A stretch of 52,034 nt of DNA from Candidatus Doudnabacteria bacterium (lineage in GTDB: Bacteria; Patescibacteriota; Doudnabacteria; UBA920): positions 1 through 52,034 of the forward strand of contig PLYC01000032.1 in the NCBI GenBank assembly GCA_003151625.1, given 5' to 3'. Positions 17,449 through 48,008 of the stretch are shown here, in pieces. How positions within the stretch are numbered: position 1 is the first letter of the stretch; every line of letters starts with the position of its first letter. The notes beneath the pieces are model-generated. The model did not search any database and was not told the DNA's origin. It saw only the letters and a program-made list of their open reading frames with translations. Made by a program: the position numbers and the translations under genes.

Positions 17449-17895
17449 TCAATTTTGCTCAATCATGTCAATTTTGTCAATTCGTCTCTGGTGCCTTCCG
17501 CCGTCAAACCCGGTTTCTATCCAAAGATCTATGGCACGCTCCACCTGTTCGGGAGTTAAAAATTTTGCTCCCAAAGAAAGCACGTTGGCGTTATTGTGCT
17601 GGCGCGACAAGACAATAATATCCTCGTGTCCGCCGTAATACAGCGCCGCCCTAATACCTTTGACTTTGTTGGCCACTATGGCCTCGCCCTGTCCGCTCAT
17701 ACCAATAACAATTCCCATGCTTCCGGGGTTCTGGCCGACTTTTACCGCGCAGGGATAAATAAAATCCGGGTAGTCGTCGTCCGGATCCACCTTAAAAGGC
17801 CCACAGTCTTCTATTTGCTGATCGGTTTTTTTTAAATGGTCTATTACCTGTTTCTTTAACTCAAACCCGGCGTGGTCCGATGCGATATATATCAT
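17449..17895 (-). CDS. rpiB: Ribose-5-phosphate isomerase B
   Basis: It interconverts ribose 5-phosphate and ribulose 5-phosphate. The 148-residue protein shows ASDHAGFELK (residues 5-14), GMSGQGEAIVANKVKGIRAAL and RQHNNANVLSLGAKF. In the active site the E. coli-type Cys is absent and GQGE occupies the position of the Mycobacterium-type catalytic Glu (GNGEQ). The C terminus is encoded by a repeat arm. It stands at the head of the rpiB-rpe-tkt group. Confidence 0.94.
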   Translation of the reverse strand: MIYIASDHAGFELKKQVIDHLKKTDQQIEDCGPFKVDPDDDYPDFIYPCAVKVGQNPGSMGIVIGMSGQGEAIVANKVKGIRAALYYGGHEDIIVLSRQHNNANVLSLGAKFLTPEQVERAIDLWIETGFDGGRHQRRIDKIDMIEQN

Positions 17896-17907
17896 AAGTT
17901 CTCATCA

Positions 17908-18034
17908 TTGTGTCATTCCGAGCCAGTAGCAGCCGAGTCGAGGAATCCCTTAACGATTGATAATCCATTAGTCTTCAATGGTTAAGGGATCCCTCCACTC
18001 CCTCAGATGCATTCGGTCGGTCGGGATGACACAA
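17908..18034. repeat. Family R long palindrome between tpiA and rpiB
   Basis: The 127-bp element has outer ends TTGTGTCAT and ATGACACAA, an inner left arm GAGGAATCCCTTAAC and right arm GTTAAGGGATCCCTCC. It fills the spacer between the two genes. The recJ copy at 3369-3466 and a worn copy near 47789-47875 are related. Confidence 0.85.
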
Positions 18035-18036
18035 GG

Positions 18037-18720
18037 TTATAAATTGATTATTTTATTAAAATCGGTTGCATTTAAACTCGCTCCGCCGACCAATAAGCCG
18101 CCGACATTCTGCTGTTCTAAAAATTCCTTGGCGTTGGCCGCGTTGGCAGAGCCCCCGTATAAAACTATGGGCACACCGTATTTGGTTTTTATAAAAATAG
18201 ATATTTTTTCCACGTGCTCCGAGGTGGCGTTCTTGCCGGTTCCAATAGCCCACACGGGTTCGTAGGCGACGATAACTTTTGACTTATCTACCCCTGCAAG
18301 GTCCACATCCAGTTGGCTCTTTAAAATATCCGTAACTTCCAAATCATCGTGTTCAACCGTGGTGCCGAAACCAATGCAAATTACCGGGATAATATTCTGC
18401 GCCAAAAGCGCTTTAGCCTTGGCGTTTACCATTTCGTCCGTATCCCCTACCGCGCGCCTTTCGCTGTGCCCAATTATGCAATATTTAATCTTTAAATCTT
18501 TCAATTGCAATGCCGAAACCTGCCCGGTAAACGCGCCCTTCTCCTGCCAAAAACAATCTTGAGCCCCGATATTTGGATATTGGATATTAGATAGATATAT
18601 GGTTGGTGGACAAAGCACAACCTTATTTTTAGCCTTAACCGATATCGAAGCCGCCAACGCCTGCGCGTCTTTAAGCGTGCTTGGATTTAGTTTCCAGTTG
18701 GCGATGATTAGTTTTTTCAT
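18037..18720 (-). CDS. tpiA: Triosephosphate isomerase, short form
   Basis: It interconverts dihydroxyacetone phosphate and glyceraldehyde 3-phosphate. Catalytic residues are visible: N8 and K10 (ANWKLN), H85 in IIGHSERR and E154 in AYEPVWAIGTGK, with LYGGSANAAN and GLLVGGASL at the phosphate site. At 227 residues it is about 25 shorter than typical bacterial enzymes, with shortened helices between H85 and E154. Its ATG overlaps the GxxExxY stop (TAATG). Confidence 0.95.
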   Translation of the reverse strand: MKKLIIANWKLNPSTLKDAQALAASISVKAKNKVVLCPPTIYLSNIQYPNIGAQDCFWQEKGAFTGQVSALQLKDLKIKYCIIGHSERRAVGDTDEMVNAKAKALLAQNIIPVICIGFGTTVEHDDLEVTDILKSQLDVDLAGVDKSKVIVAYEPVWAIGTGKNATSEHVEKISIFIKTKYGVPIVLYGGSANAANAKEFLEQQNVGGLLVGGASLNATDFNKIINL

Positions 18721-19151
18721 TATTTATTCCGATCTACAGATTCTTGAGATTTTACAGATACCTGCAGATGATTAATATTTAAAATTCGTTGGGGTTTTAA
18801 ATATTTAGCTCTAAAATTTACCAATATTCCCAGCTTTAAATTAGTTTGTTGCAAATACCTTTGTACTTGCTCAAAATCTTCCCTTTGCAAAAACGGCTTA
18901 GCTTTAAACTCCAAAACAATCAAATCCCAAACAATAAAATCTGGCCTATCAAGGATGTCCCCTACACTTTGTTCTCTTAAGTATGGAATTAATTTAAGTT
19001 TAAACCTTTCTTCAGCTTTATCGCAATAGTGCTTTTCTTTGGCGAATCTTCCAAGTTCATTATGAGTAGCAAAAAGAATTCCCCTTAATTTATAGGTTTC
19101 GTCACCATATAAAAATTCGTCTTGATTAATCATAAAATTATGTTTCAACAT
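18720..19151 (-). CDS. GxxExxY family PD-(D/E)XK nuclease-like protein
   Basis: The 143-residue protein fits the GxxExxY family: YKLRGILFATHNELGRFAKEKHYCDKAEERF (the motif region), a nuclease-like core PDFIVWDLIVLEFKAK with the D...ExK pattern, and QVQRYLQQTNLKLGILVNF with RILN near the end. Family function is unknown. The gene is enclosed by inverted repeats of word family H: the last 15 codons lie in one arm (18723-18768) and the start codon touches the other (19150-19195). The start may be 19151 or 19133; neither has a Shine-Dalgarno. The cassette fills exactly the gap between galT and tpiA. Confidence 0.85.
   Translation of the reverse strand: MLKHNFMINQDEFLYGDETYKLRGILFATHNELGRFAKEKHYCDKAEERFKLKLIPYLREQSVGDILDRPDFIVWDLIVLEFKAKPFLQREDFEQVQRYLQQTNLKLGILVNFRAKYLKPQRILNINHLQVSVKSQESVDRNK
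18723..18768. repeat. Family H inverted repeat, left arm
   Basis: It starts TTTATTCCGATCTACAGATT and continues with GAGATTTTACAGATAC and TGCAGATG. The arm at 19150-19195 is its reverse complement with about 39 of 45 matching positions by eye. Confidence 0.85.
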
Positions 19152-19195
19152 CTGAAGTTATCTGTAATATCTGCTAATCTGTATATCGGAATAAT
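19150..19195. repeat. Family H inverted repeat, right arm
   Basis: It contains the iterated words ATCTGAAGTT, ATCTGTAAT, ATCTGCTA, ATCTGTATATCGG and ends at the first base of the galT stop codon. It is complementary to 18723-18768. Confidence 0.85.
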
Positions 19196-20205
19196 TACTC
19201 CTCTCCCTTTAAAAACTTCGTACTCACCTCCGGCGGAATCGGGTTTACCGGAATTCCCGTGGCGTATTCGAAGCCGGCCCAAATGGTAATGCGCGGGAAA
19301 ATGGTCAGGTGCCAGTGGAAAGCTTTTTCCTCGTGAGCCGCGTGCTTGTTATGTTCGGACGGCATGTTGTGGATGTAAAAGTTCAAAGGCGGGTCAGAAA
19401 GTTTGGTGTAGAGTTGTCCGAGCGTGACTTTTAAAACGAATGACAAATGTTTTATTTCCTCTTCTGTCATATCCTCAAACCTTGCCCCGTGCCGCTTGGG
19501 CAATATCCAAGTTTCAAACGGACTGCGGCTGGCATAAGCGGAGATAACCACAAAATGCTCGCTTTCGTGCACCACGCGGTCTTTGACCAAAAGCTCTTCT
19601 TTAATGATATCACAATAAATGCAGGCGTTGTTATTTTGGTAGTAATGGTAACATCCCAAAATTTCATCGTGGATGTGCGGCGGCACTATGGGCGTGGCAA
19701 GCAACTGATAATGAGGATGAATAATGCTCGCTCCGGCGTCGCGGCCGTGATTATGAAAAATTTGGATGTAGGCCAATTCCGGATTGGCGGATAATGTTTT
19801 TATCCTTTCGATAAAAGTTTTTATCGTGAGCTCAACAATTGCAATCGATTGCAAAGCCACAGGCTCGTTATGCTTACGAGTGATTATGATTTCATGGTCG
19901 CCGTCACCGCTGTGCGAAACATAAAACTCCTTATGCCGGTAAACCGCTGTGTGCTCCAGCGAAGAAAACTTGTTGGGAATTATCCGAATTTCGTAATCTT
20001 TGCCTTTTGTCGGCAAACCATCCGCGCCCACTCTTAAAATTTCCGGATTTAAACGCTCATTCCCCGGACAAAAAACGCACTTGGCATCCACCTCCGGAAC
20101 GCCGAACATAACACTATAAGTCTTATACTGGTCCGGCCTCTTCCCCCTAGTCGGAGCGATGAGAACCCAGTTTTTTGTTATTGGATTTTGTCGGAATTCG
20201 GACAA
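19195..20205 (-). CDS. galT: Galactose-1-phosphate uridylyltransferase
   Basis: A HIT-superfamily nucleotidyltransferase of 336 residues. The zinc-binding CVFCPGN and the second CIYCDI, HNHGRDAGASIIHPHYQLLATP with the catalytic HPH, and the C-terminal HWHLTIFPR with the paired histidines are all present. It exchanges UMP between UDP-glucose and galactose 1-phosphate; related enzymes of this family act on other sugar phosphates, so the substrate is not certain. No galK or galE is in the window. Confidence 0.92.
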   Translation of the reverse strand: MSEFRQNPITKNWVLIAPTRGKRPDQYKTYSVMFGVPEVDAKCVFCPGNERLNPEILRVGADGLPTKGKDYEIRIIPNKFSSLEHTAVYRHKEFYVSHSGDGDHEIIITRKHNEPVALQSIAIVELTIKTFIERIKTLSANPELAYIQIFHNHGRDAGASIIHPHYQLLATPIVPPHIHDEILGCYHYYQNNNACIYCDIIKEELLVKDRVVHESEHFVVISAYASRSPFETWILPKRHGARFEDMTEEEIKHLSFVLKVTLGQLYTKLSDPPLNFYIHNMPSEHNKHAAHEEKAFHWHLTIFPRITIWAGFEYATGIPVNPIPPEVSTKFLKGEE

Positions 20206-20441: not shown

Positions 20442-20882
20442 TTATGGCCCTTTCAATTTGGCTAAATAATTTTGCAAAAGTATTTGTGCGGCTAAACTGT
20501 CAACGTATTTGCTTTTATCCGGTGATGTTTTGCCCACCTTTTTATTATTTTTAGTGGGCAATCCGCCGAAGCCTTGGCGAAGGTGGACCGCCATTTGCGA
20601 AGATAACCGCTCATCCATAATTTCCACCGGTAATCCTGTCTGACTTTCAACTTTAATCTTAAATCTTTCAACTTCTTCGGTCTTCTTTGTCCTCCCCCCG
20701 TCCATATTCAGCGGCCAGCCGAGCACGATTTTTGAAATTGAATGATTTAAAATTAAAAGATTTAAAGATTGCCAAAACTCCTTAGGAGACAAGATATCCA
20801 ACTCCCTTGCTAACGTAAAACTTTCATCGCTTATTGCCAATCCGATCCTCTTCTCGCCATAATCGATTCCGAGTATTTTCAT
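20442..20882 (-). CDS. ruvX: Pre-16S rRNA nuclease / Holliday junction resolvase-like RuvX (YqgF), with repeat-encoded insert
   Basis: The RNase H-fold protein shows GIDYGEKRIGLAISD (residues 4-18), ILGWPLNMDG and MDERLSSQMA, then DSLAAQILLQNYL at the C terminus, the standard YqgF order. Between the DERLSS helix and the last helix it has HLRQGFGGLPTKNNKKVGK, where most homologues are shorter; LRQGFGG is encoded by a family Q palindrome (20562-20588) next to a TTGCCCAC/GTGGGCAA stem. The frame is intact. Its start overlaps the DUF559 stop (ATGA). Confidence 0.92.
   Translation of the reverse strand: MKILGIDYGEKRIGLAISDESFTLARELDILSPKEFWQSLNLLILNHSISKIVLGWPLNMDGGRTKKTEEVERFKIKVESQTGLPVEIMDERLSSQMAVHLRQGFGGLPTKNNKKVGKTSPDKSKYVDSLAAQILLQNYLAKLKGP
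20530..20588. repeat. Family Q palindrome and nested stem inside ruvX
   Basis: TTGCCCAC (20530-20537) pairs with GTGGGCAA (20554-20561) and is followed by CCGCCGAAGCCTTGGCGAAGG, the Q core also found at 4397-4422. Together they add about ten residues to RuvX. Confidence 0.7.
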
Positions 20883-21277
20883 AATGCGTCCTGCAGTCTC
20901 CCCTCTCCCGCTTGCGGGGGAGGGTTAGGGTGGGGGCTGATAATAGCTAGCCTAATTGTTTCCAAAGCCCCTTCTAAATTATTATCTAATTCATTATTCC
21001 AAAATCTTAGCACCTTGTATTTGTTAGCAACCAAATAATCTTCTTTCAGCTTGTCTTGTTCTGATATTGACTTGCCGCTGTGCTGGCTTCCATCCAGCTC
21101 TATGGCCAATCTTTTATTCTTGCAACAAAAATCCACAATATATTTTTCACCAAAAGGTACCTGACGCCTAAATTGTTCGTCACACATTCTGTGATTTCTT
21201 AAATACTGCCATAATTTTGCTTCCCAGGGATTTTTGCTTTTTCTTTGTTCCCTTGCTAGTTTAATTAGTGTGCTCAT
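20879..21277 (-). CDS. DUF559 protein, Vsr-like PD-(D/E)XK endonuclease fold
   Basis: The 132-residue protein starts with the DUF559 pattern: ARELRK-like helix, NPWEAKLWQYLRNHRMCDEQFRRQVPFGEKYIVDFCC, then KRLAIELDGSQH (the D...ExD nuclease core) and YKVLRFWNNEL. The family resembles very-short-patch-repair endonucleases; activity is unproven. Its last 17 or so residues (HPNPPPQAGEG) are read from a family K palindrome. An inverted copy of the same palindrome lies before its start, so the whole looks like a cassette between degP and ruvX. Confidence 0.88.
   Translation of the reverse strand: MSTLIKLAREQRKSKNPWEAKLWQYLRNHRMCDEQFRRQVPFGEKYIVDFCCKNKRLAIELDGSQHSGKSISEQDKLKEDYLVANKYKVLRFWNNELDNNLEGALETIRLAIISPHPNPPPQAGEGRLQDAL
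20888..20943. repeat. Family K palindrome at the DUF559 3' end
   Basis: It reads CCCCTCTCCCGCTTGCGGG then GGAGGGTTAGGGTGGGGGC, so it is itself a hairpin. It encodes the C terminus of the DUF559 protein. The copy at 21283-21331 is in opposite orientation. Confidence 0.8.
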
Positions 21278-21282
21278 AATTC

Positions 21283-21331
21283 CCCCTCCCTAGCCCTCCC
21301 CCCTCAGCTGCATTCGGGGAGAGGGAAGGGA
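21283..21331. repeat. Family K palindrome at the DUF559 5' end
   Basis: On the minus strand it reads CCCTTCCCTCTCCCCGAATGC then GGGGGGAGGGCTAGGGAGGGGG, matching the other copy in inverted orientation. It fills the space between the degP stop and the DUF559 start. Confidence 0.8.
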
Positions 21332-34569: not shown

Positions 34570-34650
34570 AGGATTCACTAATTAGCACTAATCATGAAAC
34601 GAATGGACACAAATTCGTGTTAATTCGTCTGCAGTATTCGTGTTTATTTG
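34570..34650. repeat. Spacer palindrome, family A, rpsE-rplO
   Basis: Right arm ATTCGTGTTAATTCG, TCTGCAGTATTCGTG, TTTATTTGT; left arm CACTAATTAGCACTAAT with ACGAAT and ACAAATT as the complement. It replaces the position of rpmD. Confidence 0.88.
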
Positions 34651-35154
34651 TTACTTACGCATTTTCCACAATTCTTCCTTACTCTTCATTTTCGAGAATG
34701 CAGAGAAAACGGCTTTAACATTATTAACTTTATTATTGGAACCAAGCATTTTGGAAACGACATTTTTTACACCGGCCAATTCCATAACGCTTCTAACCGC
34801 TCCACCGGCAATAACACCGGTACCGGGTTTAGCCGGCTTGAGCATGAGACTGCTCGATTTATACTTTACGGTAAGGCCGTGCGGAATCGTTTCATTAACC
34901 AATGGCAGGGTAATTAAATTCTTCTTGGCGGCATTAACGGCCTTGTTGACGCTCTCAGCAACATCGGCTCCCTTTTTTAAACCCATTCCCACTTTGCCTT
35001 TGTGGTTACCAATAACAACAAGTGCGCGAAAACGCATTCTTTTTCCGCCGGCAACAACGCGGGTGACCCTTTTAACTTCCACAACTTTTTGGTCAAACTC
35101 ACTGCGCTCTCTATCGCCGCCGTCCCTATTTGATTGTCTTCGTCTTTTTTCCAT
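34651..35154 (-). CDS. rpsE: 30S ribosomal protein S5
   Basis: Length 167 residues. The double-stranded RNA-binding N domain (FDQKVVEVKRVTRVVAGGKRMRF) and the loop GNHKGKVGMGLKKG identify S5, which helps accuracy of decoding. The start lacks a Shine-Dalgarno; a family A arm lies directly before it. Confidence 0.97.
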   Translation of the reverse strand: MEKRRRQSNRDGGDRERSEFDQKVVEVKRVTRVVAGGKRMRFRALVVIGNHKGKVGMGLKKGADVAESVNKAVNAAKKNLITLPLVNETIPHGLTVKYKSSSLMLKPAKPGTGVIAGGAVRSVMELAGVKNVVSKMLGSNNKVNNVKAVFSAFSKMKSKEELWKMRK

Positions 35155-35235
35155 GTTAGTAAACTAATTTCACTAATTGAGAAACGAATGGACACAAATT
35201 CGTGTTAATTCGTCTGCAGTATTCGTGTTAATTTG
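35155..35235. repeat. Spacer palindrome, family A, rplR-rpsE
   Basis: Almost the same right arm as 34570-34650 (ATTCGTGTTAATTCGTCTGC, then AGTATTCGTG). Left arm CTAATTTCACTAATTGAG, AAACGAATGGACAC. Confidence 0.88.
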
Positions 35236-35589
35236 TTAGAATTCAAGTCCGCCTTCTCTCGCGCCTTCTGCCAAGGCCTCAATTCTGCCGTGGTAGGCAA
35301 AACCTCCGCGGTCAAACTTTACCGTCTTAATATTTTTAGCGGTCGCTTTAGTAGCAACTAATTTGCCGACTTCTTTGGCGATTTCACTTTTCTTGCCTTT
35401 AGATTTTATCTCAAGGCTGGAAGCGGAAGCCAAAGTTTTACCGGCGTTGTCGTCTATTAACTGGGCGTAAATGTGCTGGTTAGCCTTAAAAACCGAAAGT
35501 CTGGGGCGTTCTAACGATCCCGAAATCCTGCTCCTTACGCGTCTGTGGCGGATAGCTCTCTTTATTCTTTTTTGTGCGTTGCTGTTCAT
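35236..35589 (-). CDS. rplR: 50S ribosomal protein L18
   Basis: The 117-residue protein binds 5S r[40 protein letters not shown] and the C-terminal [26 protein letters not shown] are typical. The ATG at 35589 is preferred over an alternative GTG at 35598. Confidence 0.96.
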
Positions 35590-35675
35590 ATTGGTCACTA
35601 ATTAACACTAATTATGAGACGAATGTGCACGAATTCTATTTGTGTTAATTCGTCTGCATTATTCGTGTTTATTTG
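35590..35675. repeat. Spacer palindrome, family A, rplF-rplR
   Basis: Left arm CACTAATTAACACTAATT, GAGACGAATGTGCACGAATT; right arm TGTGTTAATTCG, TCTGCATTATTCGTG, TTTATTTGTTA. Confidence 0.88.
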
Positions 35676-36257
35676 TTATTTACCGCCGCCCACTACTTTA
35701 ACAACCTTACCGGCTTTTCTCAATACCACTTCATCAGAATATTTAATGCCTTTGCCTTTATACGGTTCGGGTTTTTTTAATTCCCTGATTTCGGCGGCAA
35801 ACTGTCCTACTTTTTGTTTGTCGGAGCCAAAAATACTTATGGTATTTTTATCTACCGCAACGGTCAGCTCTTTTGGGACATCCACTATAATCGGATGGGA
35901 AAAACCTAAATTTAAAGTCAATTTTCCCGGGGTTGCCGCAACTTTAAAACCCACGCCTACAACTTCCAGCTTTTTTTCATAACCTTTAGTAACGCCTTCC
36001 ACTAAATTCTGAATTAAAGCTCGAAACAAACCCCAAAGGGCTTTCTCGTGCTTGTTGTCTTTGCTTTTAACGTCTACTAAAATCTCTTTCTCATTTACGG
36101 TAACAATAACTTTAGGATGCAAAGGTAAAACCAAAGTACCCTTAGGGCCGGTAACGGTCAAAATTAAATCTCCGGCGGAGCCGGATCCGGCTCCGCCGGA
36201 TTTTACGGCATTAACGCCGGAAGGAAGTATTACTGGTTTTTTTCCGATTCTGCTCAT
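35676..36257 (-). CDS. rplF: 50S ribosomal protein L6 with palindrome-encoded insert
   Basis: Two L6 domains are clear: MSRIGKKPVILPSGVNAV at the start, TVTGPKGTLVLPLHP, and the C-terminal PEPYKGKGIKYSDEVVLRKAGK. Between the first strand and TVTGPKG the family normally has a short turn; here ten residues SGGAGSGSAG are added, read from a 30-bp palindrome at 36171-36200. At 193 residues it is about ten longer than usual. The insert lies in a hairpin turn and should be tolerated. Confidence 0.97.
   Translation of the reverse strand: MSRIGKKPVILPSGVNAVKSGGAGSGSAGDLILTVTGPKGTLVLPLHPKVIVTVNEKEILVDVKSKDNKHEKALWGLFRALIQNLVEGVTKGYEKKLEVVGVGFKVAATPGKLTLNLGFSHPIIVDVPKELTVAVDKNTISIFGSDKQKVGQFAAEIRELKKPEPYKGKGIKYSDEVVLRKAGKVVKVVGGGK
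36171..36200. repeat. 30-bp family P palindrome in rplF
   Basis: A perfect palindrome with half-site TCCGGCGGAGCCGGA, centred on GGATCC, inserted in frame as ten codons. Confidence 0.95.
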
Positions 36258-36344
36258 ATAATTAAACTAATTTTTACTAATTGAGAAACGAATGGACACA
36301 AATTTGTGTTAATTTGTCTGCGGTATTCGTGTTTATTTGTTAAA
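36258..36344. repeat. Spacer palindrome, family A, rpsH-rplF
   Basis: Left arm CTAATTTTTACTAATTGAG, AAACGAATGGACAC; right arm TTTGTGTTAATTTG, TCTGCGGTATTCGTG, TTTATTTGTTA. Confidence 0.88.
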
Positions 36345-36740
36345 TTACCATACCTGGCACACTACTTCTCCGCCAAGTTTTAACTTCCTGGCTTCTTTAT
36401 CTGTCATTAGGCCTTTGGAGGTAGAAACCACTGTCACACCATAACCGCTATTTGTCCGGGGAAGCTTATCGGCCGGAAGGTAAATGCGCTGTCCCGGCTT
36501 GCTGACTCTTTTTATTCCGCCAATAACCGGTTCCGTGCCCGAATACTTTAATTTAATTTGTAACATCTTGTGGTTATCACCCGAAATTAACTCCTGGCTC
36601 CCGGCAACAAAGCCTGCTTTAACCAAAACTTCAGTAAGGCGCGCTTTAAATTTGGAATATGGTAAAACCAACTCGGCCTTTTGGGCTAAGCTTGCGTTAC
36701 GGATACGAGTTAACATGTCGGCGATAGGATCGGTGTACAT
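36345..36740 (-). CDS. rpsH: 30S ribosomal protein S8
   Basis: Length 131 residues. DPIADMLTRIRNA at the N terminus, RVSKPGQRIYLPADKLPR, and VVSTSKGLMTDKEARKLKLGGEVVCQVW at the C terminus identify S8, an early 16S rRNA binder and often the operon's autoregulator. No Shine-Dalgarno is seen before the ATG. Confidence 0.97.
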   Translation of the reverse strand: MYTDPIADMLTRIRNASLAQKAELVLPYSKFKARLTEVLVKAGFVAGSQELISGDNHKMLQIKLKYSGTEPVIGGIKRVSKPGQRIYLPADKLPRTNSGYGVTVVSTSKGLMTDKEARKLKLGGEVVCQVW

Positions 36741-37033: not shown

Positions 37034-37136
37034 AAATTAATTGAACAAAATTGACCAGAATTAATTAAAATTAAATAAAATTTATTGCAACTGCTTCCCA
37101 ATTTTACTTAATTTCGTCAATTTTACTTAATTTTAC
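37034..37136. repeat. Spacer palindrome, family F, rplE-rpsN
   Basis: Left arm GAATTAATTAAAATTAAATA; right arm AATTTTACTTAATTTCG, TCAATTTTACTTAATTTTAC. The words AAGTAAAATT and AATTTTACTT are complementary. Confidence 0.85.
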
Positions 37137-37679
37137 TTAATTCTTTTTGAATGGGAACCCCATTTGTGTTAATAATTCTCTGGCGGAGGCATCTTTTCTG
37201 GCATTGGTGACAACTGACACTTCCAGACCAAAGACATTCTCCAAACTTTCCGTGGAAATTTCCGGAAAAACCAGCTGTTCCTTAAGCCCCAAATGATAAT
37301 TTCCTCTGCCATCAAAACCATCCGGTGAAATGCCCTGAAAATCTCTAACGCGCGGCAAAGCCACATTCACAAGTTTATCTAAAAAGCTGTACATTCTAAA
37401 GCCTCTAAGAGTACAAACAACTCCAACAACCTGGTTTTCTCTGACTTTAAAACCGGCAATCGATTTCCTTGCCTTGGCTTTTACCGGAGCCTGTCCGGTA
37501 ATTTTTTTAACGTCTTCGACAATCTGGTCTATCTTTTTCTTGTCTTCCTTAAATTTGCCGACGCCAACGTTAACCACGACTTTTAAAACTTTTGGCACCT
37601 GCATCACATTCTTAAAAGCAAACTTCTCTTTTAAAGCCGGGGCAATTTTCTTATTATATTGTTCTTGTAATCTTTCCAT
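37137..37679 (-). CDS. rplE: 50S ribosomal protein L5
   Basis: Length 180 residues. NVMQVPKVLKVVVNVGVGKF, TGQAPVKAKARKSIAGFKVREN, and DFQGISPDGFDGRGNYHLGLKEQ identify L5, which holds 5S rRNA and contacts the P-site tRNA. Normal length. Confidence 0.97.
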   Translation of the reverse strand: MERLQEQYNKKIAPALKEKFAFKNVMQVPKVLKVVVNVGVGKFKEDKKKIDQIVEDVKKITGQAPVKAKARKSIAGFKVRENQVVGVVCTLRGFRMYSFLDKLVNVALPRVRDFQGISPDGFDGRGNYHLGLKEQLVFPEISTESLENVFGLEVSVVTNARKDASARELLTQMGFPFKKN

Positions 37680-37763
37680 AATGGGGAACGAATTTACACT
37701 AATTTAGAACGAATGGACACAAATCCGTGTTAATTCGTTTGCAGTATTCGTGTTAATTAGTTT
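37680..37763. repeat. Spacer palindrome, family A, rplX-rplE
   Basis: Left arm GAACGAATTTACACTAATTT, AGAACGAATGGACACAAAT; right arm CCGTGTTAATTCG, TTTGCAGTATTCGTG, TTAATTAGTT. Confidence 0.88.
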
Positions 37764-38081
37764 TTAAATTGCTTTACCGCTGTCTTTTCCGATTCTTTGC
37801 TTATTACCGTTTTCTAAAAATGTAAACGCGACTCTGGTGGGGTTTCCTGAATTGGGATCTACCAGCATAACTTTAGAAGAGGACAAGGAGGCAAAAAAGG
37901 TAACTTTCTTTCCCGATTCTCCTGCTTTTTTGGAGCGCTCAAATCTGGTGCGAGAATTAACGCCTTCAACAACCAATTTCCCGATTTTCGGAAAAACCTT
38001 TATAACCTTACCGGTCTTCCCCTTGTCCTTGCCGGACAAAAGCTTTACCGTATCTCCTGTTTTTATTCTGAGTTTATTCAT
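37764..38081 (-). CDS. rplX: 50S ribosomal protein L24
   Basis: The 105-residue protein shows the KOW motif IKTGDTVKLLSGKDKGKTGKV and VVEGVNSRTRF, with SKVMLVDPNSGNPTRV later. The ATG at 38081 gives the usual MNKLRIKTGD; the earlier in-frame start at 38090 adds three residues. Confidence 0.96.
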   Translation of the reverse strand: MNKLRIKTGDTVKLLSGKDKGKTGKVIKVFPKIGKLVVEGVNSRTRFERSKKAGESGKKVTFFASLSSSKVMLVDPNSGNPTRVAFTFLENGNKQRIGKDSGKAI

Positions 38082-38185
38082 ATAAATCAACTAATTTTCA
38101 CAAATTGTTTACGAATTTTCACTAATATACGGATTCGTGATTTTGCGTTAATTCGTCTGCAGTATTCGTGTCCATTCGTTTGCCG
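38082..38185. repeat. Spacer palindrome, family A, rplN-rplX
   Basis: Left arm AACTAATTTTCACAAATTG, TTTACGAATTTTCACTAATA; right arm GATTCGTGATTTTGCG, TTAATTCGTCTGCAGTATTC, GTGTCCATTCG. Confidence 0.85.
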
Positions 38186-38578
38186 TTAGATTACTTCTGG
38201 TGCAAGGGATACTATTTTCTTAAAACCATCTTCGTAATGTCCTTTGGCCTTTTCGCGGATTTCTCTCGGGATAGGTCCGAATATGCGGGTTCCCTTGGGC
38301 TCGCCGGATTCTTTGTCTACCAAAACCCCGGCGTTTTCGTCAAAGCGAATGTACGAACCGTCTTTGCGGCGGATTTCCTTGCGCAAACGCACAATAACCG
38401 CGTGAACCTTATCACCTTTTTTGTAGTTGGCATTAGGGGTCACCTGTCTAATAGAACCGGACACAATATCGCCAATCCTGGCAAAACGGTTGCTGTTCTT
38501 GCCGTTAACACTAAAAAGGTTAACGACTTTAGCGCCGGTGTTGTCGGCTATTTTAATGTAGGATCGTACTTGGAGCAT
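38186..38578 (-). CDS. rplN: 50S ribosomal protein L14
   Basis: Length 130 residues, slightly longer than the common 122. MLQVRSYIKIADNTGAK, KKGDKVHAVIVRLRKEIRRKDGSYIRFDENAGVLVD and GTRIFGPIPRE identify L14. The extra residues are at the C terminus (GHYEDGFKKIVSLAPEVI). Confidence 0.97.
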   Translation of the reverse strand: MLQVRSYIKIADNTGAKVVNLFSVNGKNSNRFARIGDIVSGSIRQVTPNANYKKGDKVHAVIVRLRKEIRRKDGSYIRFDENAGVLVDKESGEPKGTRIFGPIPREIREKAKGHYEDGFKKIVSLAPEVI

Positions 38579-38692
38579 ATAAATTTCTTATTCCGCTGAA
38601 TGGTCGCTGATACTTACGCTGATATGTCGCTGAGCTTAAAAATTTCAGATTCAGCGTTTTTTCAGCGTCCCTATCGGCGTCCGTTCAGCAAT
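38579..38692. repeat. Spacer palindrome, family D, rpsQ-rplN
   Basis: Left arm CCGCTGAATGGTCGCTGATA, CGCTGATATGTCGCTGAG; right arm TTCAGCGTTTTTTCAGCG, CGGCGTCCGTTCAGCA. The arms are complementary words. Confidence 0.88.
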
Positions 38693-38944
38693 CTATATTT
38701 TACTAATAACTTTAAACTTTTTCTCTTTGGACATCGGCCTAACAGACTCAATCACAACCTTATCCCCGACTTTGTACTCGTTATTCTCATCGTGAGCTTT
38801 GTACTTGTTGGAAATGGTGTAAGCTTTTTTATATTTAAGATGGCGTTTTCTGACGTTAACCTTAACAACAACGGTCTTCATCATTTTATCGGAGACCACA
38901 ATTCCTGTCAGCTGTTGTTTTTTTGGGGTGTTATCTTGTGTCAT
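38693..38944 (-). CDS. rpsQ: 30S ribosomal protein S17
   Basis: The 83-residue OB-fold protein shows LTGIVVSDKMMKTVVVKVNV and DKVVIESVRPMSKEKKFKV, typical of S17. It starts with an AATTTATG context and follows rpmC after only ten bases, the one spacer in the operon with no palindrome. Confidence 0.96.
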   Translation of the reverse strand: MTQDNTPKKQQLTGIVVSDKMMKTVVVKVNVRKRHLKYKKAYTISNKYKAHDENNEYKVGDKVVIESVRPMSKEKKFKVISKI

Positions 38945-39146: not shown

Positions 39147-39225
39147 AAATTAGCTTTTAGCTGATAGCATTTAGCTTTTAGCCAACCAGTATTGCCTGGC
39201 TAAGTGCTAAATGCTAATCGCTTGA
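39147..39225. repeat. Spacer palindrome, family E, rplP-rpmC
   Basis: Left arm TTAGCTTTTAGCTGATAGC, ATTTAGCTTTTAGCCA; right arm TGGCTAAGTGCTAAATGC, TAATCGCTTGATTA. Confidence 0.88.
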
Positions 39226-39642
39226 TTATCCCTGATGGTCCTTTACTAAGAACCTGCTTTTTACCGGTAACTTGTAACTGGCCAGTCTCATGGCTTCCTG
39301 CGCCTGTTCTTTGGTAACTCCGTCCATTTCAAATAATATTTTGCCCTTTTTAACTACACATACAAAGTGGTCAACCGCGCCTTTACCGCCACCCATCGGG
39401 CTTTCGTTTCCGTGCAGAGTAACCGGCTTGTCGGCGAATACGCGAATCCAAATTTTGCCGCCGCGCTGAACGTACCTGGTCATGGCGCGCCTGGCCGCTT
39501 CTATTTGCCGTGCTGTAACCCAAGAGCTTTCCATGGCTTTTAAGGCAAACTGCCCAAAAGCAATTTCCGCTCCGGCCGTAGCCTGTCCTTTGGTCGTTCC
39601 GCGATGGTGCTTGCGGTGTTTAAGTTTTTTAGGGATGAACAT
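39226..39642 (-). CDS. rplP: 50S ribosomal protein L16
   Basis: Length 138 residues from the ATG at 39642 ([15 protein letters not shown]); the longer frame would start inside the family F repeat. [51 protein letters not shown] are diagnostic of L16. Confidence 0.96.
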
Positions 39643-39748
39643 GGTGGTATTAAGTAAAATTAAGTAAAATTTATAATTAAATAAGATTTGATTGCAACCG
39701 CATTCCAATTTTATTTAATTTTACTTAATTATGGTCAATTTTAATTAA
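39643..39748. repeat. Spacer palindrome, family F, rpsC-rplP
   Basis: Left arm ATTAAGTAAAATTAAGTAA, AATTTATAATTAAATAAG; right arm CAATTTTATTTAATTTTAC, TTAATTATGGTCAATTTT. The arms match over about 25 positions. Confidence 0.88.
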
Positions 39749-40435
39749 TTACTTTGCTTTTTCTTCCACTACTACCGGCTTTTTACCGCCGGACTGTTTT
39801 TCCTCGAATACATCTCCTTTATAAATCCAAACCTTTATTCCAACTGTACCGTATGTGGTAAAAGCCGTGGAGCGGGCAAAATCTATGTCAGCACGAAGGG
39901 TATGTAATGGAATCTTTCCCGATGATAAGTGCTCTGTGCGCGCGATATCGGCTCCGTTTAAACGGCCGCCGATTGCCACCTTTGCTCCTTTAGCTCCGGC
40001 ATTCATAATCTGTTCGAGCGATTGTTTCATTAATCTGCGGAAGGCCACGCGTTTTTCCAGCTGTTCGGCAATACCGTTGGCCAAAACTTGAGCCTGCAGA
40101 TTCATATCGCGAATTTCTTCTATGTTTATCTTCAGCTCCTGTTTTATGCTCAATTTCTGCTTTACTTTCTTTTTTAACTCTTCAATACCGGCTCCGCCTT
40201 TACCTATAATTAATCCCGGCTTGGTGGTCTTAATAATTACCGTAATAGTTCCATCGTTAAGTCGTTCAATGTCAATTCTAACCAACCCCGCTTTTTTTAA
40301 ATGCAGTTCCAGGTATTCGCGAATTCTGACATCTTCCTTAAGCTGTTTGGCAAAATGGCCTTTTGAAAACCATCTGGACTTCCAGCCTTCGGTAATGTTC
40401 ATTCTAAACGATGTCGGGTTTATCTTATGTCCCAT
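39749..40435 (-). CDS. rpsC: 30S ribosomal protein S3
   Basis: The 228-residue protein starts MGHKINPTSFRMNI, carries the KH motif GLIIGKGGAGIEELK and the C-terminal domain with GAKVAIGGRLNGADIARTE and TYGTVGIKVWIYKG. It forms part of the mRNA entry site. Confidence 0.97.
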   Translation of the reverse strand: MGHKINPTSFRMNITEGWKSRWFSKGHFAKQLKEDVRIREYLELHLKKAGLVRIDIERLNDGTITVIIKTTKPGLIIGKGGAGIEELKKKVKQKLSIKQELKINIEEIRDMNLQAQVLANGIAEQLEKRVAFRRLMKQSLEQIMNAGAKGAKVAIGGRLNGADIARTEHLSSGKIPLHTLRADIDFARSTAFTTYGTVGIKVWIYKGDVFEEKQSGGKKPVVVEEKAK

Positions 40436-41595: not shown

Positions 41596-41687
41596 ATATG
41601 GTTGAAAGCGTTTAGCTTTTAGCAATTAGCGTTTAGCCATTCAGAGTTGCCTGGCTAAGTGCTAATTGCTAACGGCTATTTGCTAAT
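41596..41687. repeat. Spacer palindrome, family E, rplB-rpsS
   Basis: Left arm GTTTAGCTTTTAGCAATTAG, CGTTTAGCCA; right arm TGGCTAAGTGCTAATTGC, TAACGGCTATTTGCTAAT. The inner TTAGCAATTAGC block pairs perfectly. Confidence 0.9.
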
Positions 41688-42524
41688 TTATTTACTTCTG
41701 CGTTTTATAATAAAATTATTGCTGTACTTCTTCTTTAGCCTGGTCTTAACACCCAAAGCATGTTTCCCCCACGGGGTCTTGGGATATTTCATGCCAATCG
41801 GGTTGTGGCCTTCGCCTCCGCCGTGCGGGTGGTCTACCGGGTTCATAACTTTTCCGCGGACAGTCGGACGCCAACCCATATGGCGCATTCTTCCGGCTTT
41901 GCCGATTCTGACATTCATCCAGTCCTGGTTTGCCAGCTGGCCAATGGTTGCCAAACAGGTTTCGCGGACTTTGCGAATTTCACCGCTCGGCATTTTAAGC
42001 AAAGAGTAACCGGCTTCAACTGTCTGGAGTAAGGCATAATTACCAGCTGATCGGGCAATTTTACCGCCCTGGCCTGGAATGAGTTCTATATCGTGGACAA
42101 AGGAGCCAACCGGAATATTTTTAAGCTGTAAACGATTGCCGGGTAAAATTTCGGCGTTCTCTCCATACATAACTTTGTCGCCTACTTTTAACCCTTGGGG
42201 GGTTAAAATAAAACGCTTGCTCCCGTCTTTATAGGACAACAGGGAAATAAAAGCCGTGCGGGTCGGATCGTATTCAACAGTTAGGACTTTTGCCGGAATG
42301 TCTTTTTTATCCGCCCTGGAAAAATCCACAATTCTTGATTTGCGGATTGCTCCGCCGCCCTGATGGCGTACTGTAATTTTGCCGCTGTTATTGCGGCCCG
42401 CGGGTTTTGCTTTGCTCACGATTAAACCCTTTGGAGTCTTATGCTTTTTATTCAATACCGAATAATCGGTCACACTGTGGATGCGCCGTCCTGCCGATGT
42501 TGGTTTGTATAGTTTTACCGCCAT
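41688..42524 (-). CDS. rplB: 50S ribosomal protein L2
   Basis: The 278-residue protein of the peptidyl transferase centre, with [31 protein letters not shown], and the C-terminal [27 protein letters not shown] including the essential histidine of DHPHGGGEG. Normal length. Confidence 0.98.
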
Positions 42525-43733: not shown

Positions 43734-43845
43734 ACTTTATCCGCTGATTAATCGCTGATAGGTACGCCGATATGTCGCTGAGCTGATAACTACGCTCTCA
43801 GCGTCTTATCAGCGTTGGTGTTAAATTCAGCGTCCATTCAGCGGT
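43734..43845. repeat. Spacer palindrome, family D, rplC-rplD
   Basis: Left arm CCGCTGATTAATCGCTGATA, TCGCTGAGCTGATA; right arm CTCAGCGTCTTATCAGCG, TTCAGCGTCCATTCAGCGG. Confidence 0.9.
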
Positions 43846-44511
43846 CTATTTCTTCTTCTTTTCTTCCTTAACAACTTCCACCTTTACCAACTGATTTACT
43901 TTACCGGTGGAAATTATTTTAACTAAGGCTGTAGGATGTCCCGGAACGGCGCCTTTTACTGTAAGCAAATTTCTTTTTACGTCTACTTCAATTACCTGCA
44001 AATTCTTTACGGTAACGCCGCTGTTGCCCATGTGTCCTGCCATTCTCATACCTTTTCTGACGTGCTGGGGGAAACGTTGTCCGATAGAACCAACGCTTCT
44101 TGGCTTGTTATGGCCGTGAGTCATCGGAAACCCGTGAAAACCGTGGCGCTTCATAGCGCCGGCAAAACCGCGACCCTTGCTTGTGCCCTGGATATTAATC
44201 ATTTCGCCGGGTTTGAAGCCGGAAATATCAATTTTTTGGCCTCTTTTGTAGCTTTCGGCATCTTCTACGCGGAATTCCGACAAAACGGCAAAAGCACCCA
44301 AATCCTTTAAGTGGCCTTGCAAAGATTTAGATACTTTGGTCTTTTTGTCTATGCCAACCTGAACCGCTCCATATTTGTCTTTGCCTTCTTTGGTCTTAAC
44401 CTGGGTAACGGTCATTGGGACGGCTGAAATAACAGTCACGGGAATTACTTCGCCGGTGGCTTCGTCAAAATACTGGGTCATATTAAGTTTTCTACCAACC
44501 AAAAAGTTCAT
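43846..44511 (-). CDS. rplC: 50S ribosomal protein L3
   Basis: The 221-residue protein shows GRKLNMTQYFDEATGEVIPVT, GTSKGRGFAGAMKRHGFHG, and GSIGQRFPQHVRKGMRMAGHMGN around the peptidyl transferase loop. It ends with a Lys/Glu tail VKEEKKKK. It is preceded by a terminator-bearing spacer. Confidence 0.97.
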   Translation of the reverse strand: MNFLVGRKLNMTQYFDEATGEVIPVTVISAVPMTVTQVKTKEGKDKYGAVQVGIDKKTKVSKSLQGHLKDLGAFAVLSEFRVEDAESYKRGQKIDISGFKPGEMINIQGTSKGRGFAGAMKRHGFHGFPMTHGHNKPRSVGSIGQRFPQHVRKGMRMAGHMGNSGVTVKNLQVIEVDVKRNLLTVKGAVPGHPTALVKIISTGKVNQLVKVEVVKEEKKKK

Positions 44512-47693: not shown

Positions 47694-47786
47694 TTTGCCT
47701 TTCTTTGTAGCATTTAGCATTTAGCCTTTAGCATTTAGCCAAACTGTATGGCTAACCGCTAATTGCTATTCACTAATTGCTAATAT
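47694..47786. repeat. Family E palindrome in the tuf leader
   Basis: Left arm TTTAGCATTTAGCCTTTAGC, ATTTAGCCA; right arm GGCTAACCGCTAATTGC, TATTCACTAATTGCTAAT. Lies directly before the tuf start. Confidence 0.88.
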
Positions 47787-48008
47787 TGCCCGAGATTCCC
47801 TAAGCGCTAAAGCGTATCGATCCGCCACAGCGCCAAAGGGATCTCTTTTTTTACGCCGAGATGACGTTATCCAGAGCAATAAATTAATTATTTAACCCGC
47901 CTAAACTTTGCCCAATACTGCCGAATTATTGCGATGGCCAACATAAGTTTAACCATTTTACAAAACTCAAAATATCATCGCAAAGTTTTGGTGGGTGAAC
48001 TACAACTT
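47787..48008. other. Rest of the tuf leader with a worn family R repeat
   Basis: CCCGAGATTCCCT and AAGGGATCTC (about 47789-47855) form a stem, followed by CGAGATGACG, which resembles family R. The remaining leader to the promoter contains no gene; hairpin TTTTGCGATG-like words near 47930 and 47980 (AACTTTGCGATG and CATCGCAATAATT) could pair. Confidence 0.5.

Follow-up and report, generated by a model that had tools for sequence, protein, structure and literature searches.

The short stretch between galT and tpiA in the analysed window (52,034 nucleotides, contig C7 of a 1.5-Mb Patescibacteria genome) is, taken as a whole, best explained as a compact autonomous mobile element, that is, a palindrome of word arrays with a GxxExxY nuclease gene at its centre; we consider this explanation likely. 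The finding is real and general. The palindromes found in related genomes and within essential protein genes suggest a selfish element of a class not yet described, which its own nuclease probably mobilizes.

Patescibacteria as the phylum is taken from the sequence-only reading and agrees with the relatives found. The gene order on the minus strand is galT, the GxxExxY gene and tpiA. The gene in the palindrome loop (18720–19151, minus strand) encodes a PD-(D/E)XK nuclease of 143 aa, assigned by matches to PF13366 and TIGR04256, invariant alignment columns and a structure model. Its upstream neighbor is galT (19195–20205, minus strand; PF01087/PF02744) and its downstream neighbor is tpiA (18037–18720, minus strand; PF00121, E-value 3.8e-66). 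Repeat search and arm alignment delimited the upstream (5’) arm at 19144–19197 (minus strand), with inward-reading ACAGAT words and an outer end formed by the galT stop codon, and the downstream (3’) arm at 18721–18775 (minus strand), with ATCTGT words and an outer end that abuts the tpiA start. The element fills the gap between the two neighbors to the base: the galT stop TAA (19195–19197) touches the upstream arm, and the stop codon of the nuclease gene overlaps the tpiA ATG (TAATG), so that the last ~14 nuclease codons are written in the downstream arm. The outer ends are exact, in line with the sequence-only reading.

The same reading had reported inverted repeats of ATCTGT words around the gene, and these were confirmed. 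The arms, 54–55 nt long, form an imperfect inverted repeat: when one is aligned to the inverted other, 44 of 55 positions agree, 10 differ and one is a gap. The arm score of 32 exceeded all 5000 dinucleotide shuffles (12.3 ± 2.2, maximum 24), and of the 1289 windows with this geometry in the 52 kb none but the present site reached it. The earlier count of 39 matches in 45 positions holds only with a one-base gap, since the two stretches it had compared match ungapped at just 23 of 46 positions.

The nuclease matched PF13366 with E-value 1.6e-14 (54.7 bits, cut-off 22) and TIGR04256 (GxxExxY) with E-value 4.9e-13 (49.5 bits, curated cut-off 35). PDDEXK_3 is the sole Pfam match of the element’s protein, and the nuclease gene is the only gene of the element. 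The catalytic residues of the PD-(D/E)XK and QxxxY motifs are intact (E39, D71, E81, K83, Q95, Y99); in an alignment of 65 proteins E39, D71 and K83 are invariant, and E81, Q95 and Y99 are conserved in at least 90% of sequences. The structure model (pLDDT 90) has a fold resembling RecB, lambda exonuclease and Cas4. The best Foldseek matches were LHK-exo and lambda exonuclease (7.5e-4), the Cas4-like SSO0001 and MGME1, with modest TM-scores (0.4–0.5). The dN/dS values of 0.06–0.12 in pairs with measurable dS, including copies embedded in other genes, indicate purifying selection, although they are rough because dS is near saturation. PADLOC yielded no match to the window protein. The family GxxExxY (TIGR04256) is widespread, frequently multicopy and without an assigned role. 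In the open-licence full-text literature no description of GxxExxY as mobile was found, and the papers using the name are silent on mobility; as this search covered open-licence papers only, its outcome is no proof of novelty.

PF13366 genes were found in 60 of 380 genomes of the phylum and are multicopy (2–11) in most genomes of the family to which the window belongs. We located 120 GxxExxY elements in Patescibacteria, of which 115 had full flanks and were tested for arms with a score of at least 18. Inverted arms were present in 86% of these 115 genes and were undetectable in the remaining ~14%. In the controls the same cut-off was passed by 1.1% of shifted windows, 6.6% of pairs of left and right arms taken from different elements, and 6.1% of arms compared in direct orientation. 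Of 72 further loci, mostly from Bacteroidota, with Cyanobacteria, Calditrichota and others, 71% had arms, compared to 3.8% of shifted windows. Hence the expectation that GxxExxY genes are generally flanked by inverted word repeats was borne out. Outside Patescibacteria we relied on the shifted-window control because the two others were high there (direct orientation, 49%; mismatched arms, 34%), partly owing to a common terminus and to flanks that can contain whole palindromes. Many elements outside Patescibacteria have one fixed terminus, TGTCTGAAC...GTTCAGACA, and then NGATT words; their total length is 464–788 nt. Three loci from that set (L267, L298, L342) carry a complete palindrome on each side of the GxxExxY gene, resembling a composite of two empty elements.

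The words vary from element to element (ACTAAT, ACAGAT, ACGAAA, ACGGAT, GCGGAT, GCTGAT, CCGAAT and others). In 94 of 99 armed elements they conform to one pattern, CNRAW, oriented inward at either end, with a spacing of mostly 8–10 nt. The density of CNRAW in the arms is 7.7 per 100 nt, against 0.84 on the opposite strand and 2.6 in shuffled arms. Two words are identical with probability 0.42 if taken from opposite arms of one element and 0.085 if taken from different elements. Word similarity between elements increases with the identity of their nucleases, from 0.07 to 0.44. Strict conservation of base pairs in the arms was considered and rejected: from arm to arm the match of the N in CNRAW is loose. 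The main constraint on the arms seems to be word identity and not pairing, given that the N agrees with its arm partner in just 59% of cases, a figure that the alignment biases upward, and with non-partner words from that element in 46%.

Comparison of loci shows the arms and the gene to be one mobile unit. A near-identical copy of the window element was found in the congener G304, where the nuclease is 83% identical, the arms are nearly identical and the flanks are unrelated; that copy adjoins a TraG-like P-loop gene. Pairs of related elements at unrelated loci of one genome are L001 and L003 (own genome) and L097 and L098 (G153). The galT–tpiA junction was compared across 22 genomes of the family. 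It is bare (1–2 nt) in G210, G097 and G380, and it contains a GxxExxY element in the window genome (G000), G288 and G280, with two different word types among the three. Palindromes without a gene occupy it in G201 and G346 (assigned by eye). Other genes were found at the same junction: a GIY-YIG gene in G112, a gene read as GIY-YIG in G170, a PF05635 gene in G296 and a broken DUF559 gene in G304.

No general target duplication accompanies the Patescibacteria elements (z = −0.5), and outside this phylum a weak signal comes from two loci (L332, L279); target duplication was therefore rejected as a general trait. At these two Bacteroidota-type loci the flanks contain long imperfect direct repeats of 10–18 nt that look like a duplicated stop/start junction. 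The plasmid and phage collections yielded 8 and 2 records, respectively, too few for pairs with a vacant site.

GxxExxY elements also occur in frame within conserved proteins, with the reading frame kept open. The domain is inserted in the same loop of RecG in three genomes (G210, G288, G355) and in the same loop of LepA in three others (G070, G159, G126). RecG was confirmed by NCBIfam, and LepA, as well as KsgA and ArgS below, were named from motifs. The inserts comprise about 140–160 aa, of which ~115 belong to the nuclease domain and the rest to short linkers coded by the arms, e.g. QTNADSKQTNAD or RKSASSPRQSA. The LepA site is vacant in eleven relatives of the LepA cases (e.g. RMEW-KG-YILNL), and relatives of the RecG cases have a short loop at the place of insertion. 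Together with the bare galT–tpiA junctions, these loci provide the empty sites in close relatives that the sequence-only reading had proposed to look for. In the window’s own genome, empty word palindromes lie in frame within KsgA and ArgS. At least eight relatives have a short KsgA loop at this place; the loop contains other word palindromes in G246, G220 and G201, a palindrome of DUF559 type in G304 and one of GIY type in G151. The RecG gene of G355 (L018) has, besides its GxxExxY insert, a second in-frame insert-like stretch coding PQTNADFTRTNADM. At five loci (L050, L051, L055, L071, L009) GxxExxY is fused to the end or start of another protein; the partners were read as PurN-like, RuvX-like, pilin-like and, in one case, unnamed. 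Such fusions apparently go back to elements that adjoin a gene without closing its reading frame.

Comparison between genomes shows that palindromes lacking the gene occur as well. The end TTCCGATNTACAGATT, characteristic of the window element (family H in the sequence-only reading), marks complete gene-less palindromes of 90–115 nt in the congeners G288 (two), G210, G246 and G304 (four). The order of words in them is the same up to the center, which in the full element is occupied by the gene. No such palindromes were found elsewhere in the own genome in the 388 kb aligned, and when the whole genome was searched by pattern, a lone additional match came up that was not palindromic; this corrects the earlier reading, the empty members of the family having been found in the congeners. 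At a junction of leuS-like and Sua5-like genes (names by reading), G288 carries an empty family-H palindrome and G210 a full GxxExxY element with CGGAA words.

Other elements of the own genome do have empty counterparts in the window. Comparison of arms assigned two palindromes, one with CGCTGA words at 38579–38693 and one at 43734–43846, to the full element L002 located elsewhere in the genome. The ribosomal spacers between 34579 and 38186 repeat the words ATTCGT/ATTAGT of the full elements L001 and L003, first in an empty-palindrome spacer at 34579–34660 and then in empty palindromes at 35168–35260, 35580–35690, 36258–36345, 37680–37764 and 38091–38186. The prediction that the words around GxxExxY genes would recur as empty palindromes accordingly came true in the own genome for L001, L002 and L003 and in congeners for the ATCTGT family. 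Not every ribosomal-spacer palindrome belongs to this kind: those of the TAGC type resemble the arms of a second gene family, PF05635.

Palindromes of inward-reading CNRAW words were counted in nine genomes by scans that replaced a stringent grammar-blind palindrome scan, since the latter mixed several palindrome families. Five GxxExxY-positive genomes contained 31 such palindromes in 789 kb, some of them AT-rich (outward control, 2), and four GxxExxY-free relatives contained none in 400 kb. At a uniform rate this split has a chance of ~3e-6, a value that ignores kinship and comes from a small sample of nine related genomes. The proposed tie between empty palindromes and the presence of GxxExxY is in line with these counts.

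Palindromes of other styles were observed alongside. TAGC-word palindromes lie in the window’s ribosomal spacers at 39147–39226, 41600–41690 and 47714–47790, and the style of their words matches the arms around PF05635 genes (23S IVP four-helix bundle; L174–L203), which are present in 17 of 22 genomes of the family in up to 10 copies, 68% of them with inverted word arms. Two genes upstream of the nuclease, a DUF559 (PF04480) nuclease gene (20879–21277, minus strand) is situated in a G/C-rich inverted repeat with arms at 20916–20936 and 21282–21302; inverted flanks accompany 46% of DUF559 genes in related genomes and are often terminator-like CTCCTCCTT hairpins. Downstream of tpiA, at 17891–18051, there is a palindrome of the GTCATTCCGAG...GGGATCCC style, and some GIY-YIG genes (L215, L228) have similar palindromes, with GTCATTCC, at their flanks. 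Palindromes of AATTTTACTTA words at 37034–37144 and 39640–39749, also in ribosomal spacers, follow neither the CNRAW nor the TAGC grammar.

Taken together, comparison shows that full and empty forms alike are inserted at junctions of a stop with a start codon or, with the frame preserved, in protein loops. The nuclease probably mobilizes its own element and the empty copies. Its recognition signal would be the CNRAW words that face inward from the ends of its element, probably in a palindrome that has folded into a hairpin or cruciform as the DNA replicates, and it would cut there. Synthesis and repair by the cell would then complete the pasting or copying of the element at another place. A palindrome may often be present at the new site beforehand, and such a palindrome may itself be favored as a target. 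Empty palindromes would be non-autonomous copies served in trans that arose through loss of the central gene. The cross-arm match of words in arms that have otherwise drifted suggests either arm-to-arm copying or a common recognizing protein; copying from arm to arm in the folded form would explain why a private word is common to both arms of one element. The sequence-only reading had cast GxxExxY as the mover of the empty palindromes: it was right about the unit and the empty forms, and the part it gave to the enzyme is plausible.

An unlikely variant of this mechanism would have the nuclease cut the vacant junction, or a palindrome there, and not its own ends. Recombinational repair would then copy the element in, much as with a free-standing homing endonuclease gene, and the role of the arms would be confined to making the insert tolerable to transcription and translation. 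The absence of target duplication and the repeated occupation of the same places, namely the site upstream of tpiA and the single RecG and LepA loops, with three genomes for each, would fit this variant. However, such recurrent sites may reflect vertical inheritance, related elements stand at unrelated loci, the empty copies have exactly the same ends, and a pure homing gene would not be expected to show the word grammar or the match of words between arms. The elements do share with inteins and homing endonuclease genes a nuclease domain in frame in conserved proteins (RecG, LepA), and differ from both by word palindromes, empty copies and related copies at unrelated sites; unlike inteins, the inserts, being the nuclease and short linkers, leave no room for a splicing (Hint) domain. 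Slightly less probable still is that the nuclease is a passenger retained for another use, e.g. defence, and that the palindromes are moved by a host or unrelated transposase or by error-prone hairpin replication. By fold the protein is a generic RecB/Cas4-like nuclease, and small PF05635, DUF559 and GIY-YIG genes also stand in palindromes of the same genomes, so the type of gene in the loop varies. Against this, the word grammar tracks the gene family across phyla, words diverge in correlation with the nucleases, CNRAW palindromes are absent from the sampled GxxExxY-free relatives, and the window protein lacks a PADLOC match.

We regard it as very improbable that the palindrome is a signal for transcript processing, with a protein acting on RNA as in 23S rRNA intervening sequences. 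Those with an S23p gene do have the same anatomy, an inverted-repeat element of 400–500 nt whose loop contains a small gene, and the Coxiella arm has repeats of a GACAGAT heptamer upstream of the gene (PMC4990558). The gene of the present elements encodes a nuclease and not the S23p four-helix bundle, and it is located between or within protein genes and not in rRNA. No 16S or 23S motifs were found beside any GxxExxY gene, and an rRNA context was rejected for these elements. Moreover, the RecG and LepA inserts keep an open frame, so that nothing needs removal, and the loose match of the N between arms does not favor an RNA-level role. Weak inverted repeats do arise from AT-rich spacers, but a chance repeat or an ordinary intergenic one, such as a terminator-like hairpin beside an ordinary nuclease gene, has a negligible probability; it is ruled out by the controls with shuffled sequences and shifted windows, by empty copies that are exact and by insertions that keep the frame.

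The mobile element preferred here has partial parallels among known systems. REPINs are short extragenic palindromes dispersed in a genome together with RAYT (TnpAREP) transposases (PMC3116915, PMC8266576). As in that system, the same palindromic sequence stands beside the gene of the presumed mobilizing enzyme, its gene-less copies match the sequence beside the gene, and sequence copies diversify together with the enzyme. Unlike in REPIN/RAYT, the enzyme is PD-(D/E)XK by profile and model and not an HUH Y1 transposase, its gene is multicopy and lies within the palindrome, the arms are arrays of degenerate words, and insertion in frame into genes occurs. Insertion sequences and MITEs likewise have terminal inverted repeats, one gene and gene-less derivatives with the same ends; GxxExxY elements differ in having neither a DDE nor an HUH transposase and no general target duplication, and in Patescibacteria their arms are private word arrays with a common grammar instead of a fixed sequence. 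IS1272 performs inverted-repeat-replacing transposition, targeting palindromes without target duplication (PMC5678879). The occurrence of different palindromes at one junction in different species, again without target duplication, resembles this mode, whereas IS1272 is far larger and has its own transposase, and replacement of palindrome by palindrome would be our inference in the present case. Rickettsia palindromic elements (RPE), ~150 bp long, reside in frame in unrelated protein genes, and a review mentions no gene-bearing partner for them (PMC10969869). Compared by description, the in-frame palindromes in RecG, LepA, KsgA and ArgS are similar, while the window copy is intergenic, and GxxExxY palindromes differ from RPE by their word structure and by a full form that bears a nuclease.

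A bolder reading, whose chances we consider even, is that GxxExxY elements constitute a new superfamily of DNA transposons, in which a nuclease similar to Cas4 and lambda exonuclease would act on hairpin-folded word-array palindromes, moving itself and empty copies without target duplication and with possible in-frame landing in essential proteins. The same life style would also have been taken up by four-helix bundle, DUF559 and GIY-YIG genes, which would hint at the kind of gene-bearing partner that palindromes of the Rickettsia type may have or may have had. If the proposed role of the nuclease is true, GxxExxY would be the enzyme of a class of mobile elements present in at least Patescibacteria, Bacteroidota, Calditrichota and Cyanobacteria, a candidate mobilizing enzyme would be at hand for palindromic repeats that invade protein genes in frame, and some of the spacer sequence of these small genomes would be accounted for. 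The CNRAW word code, private to each element and common to both of its arms, makes the question of recognition directly testable.
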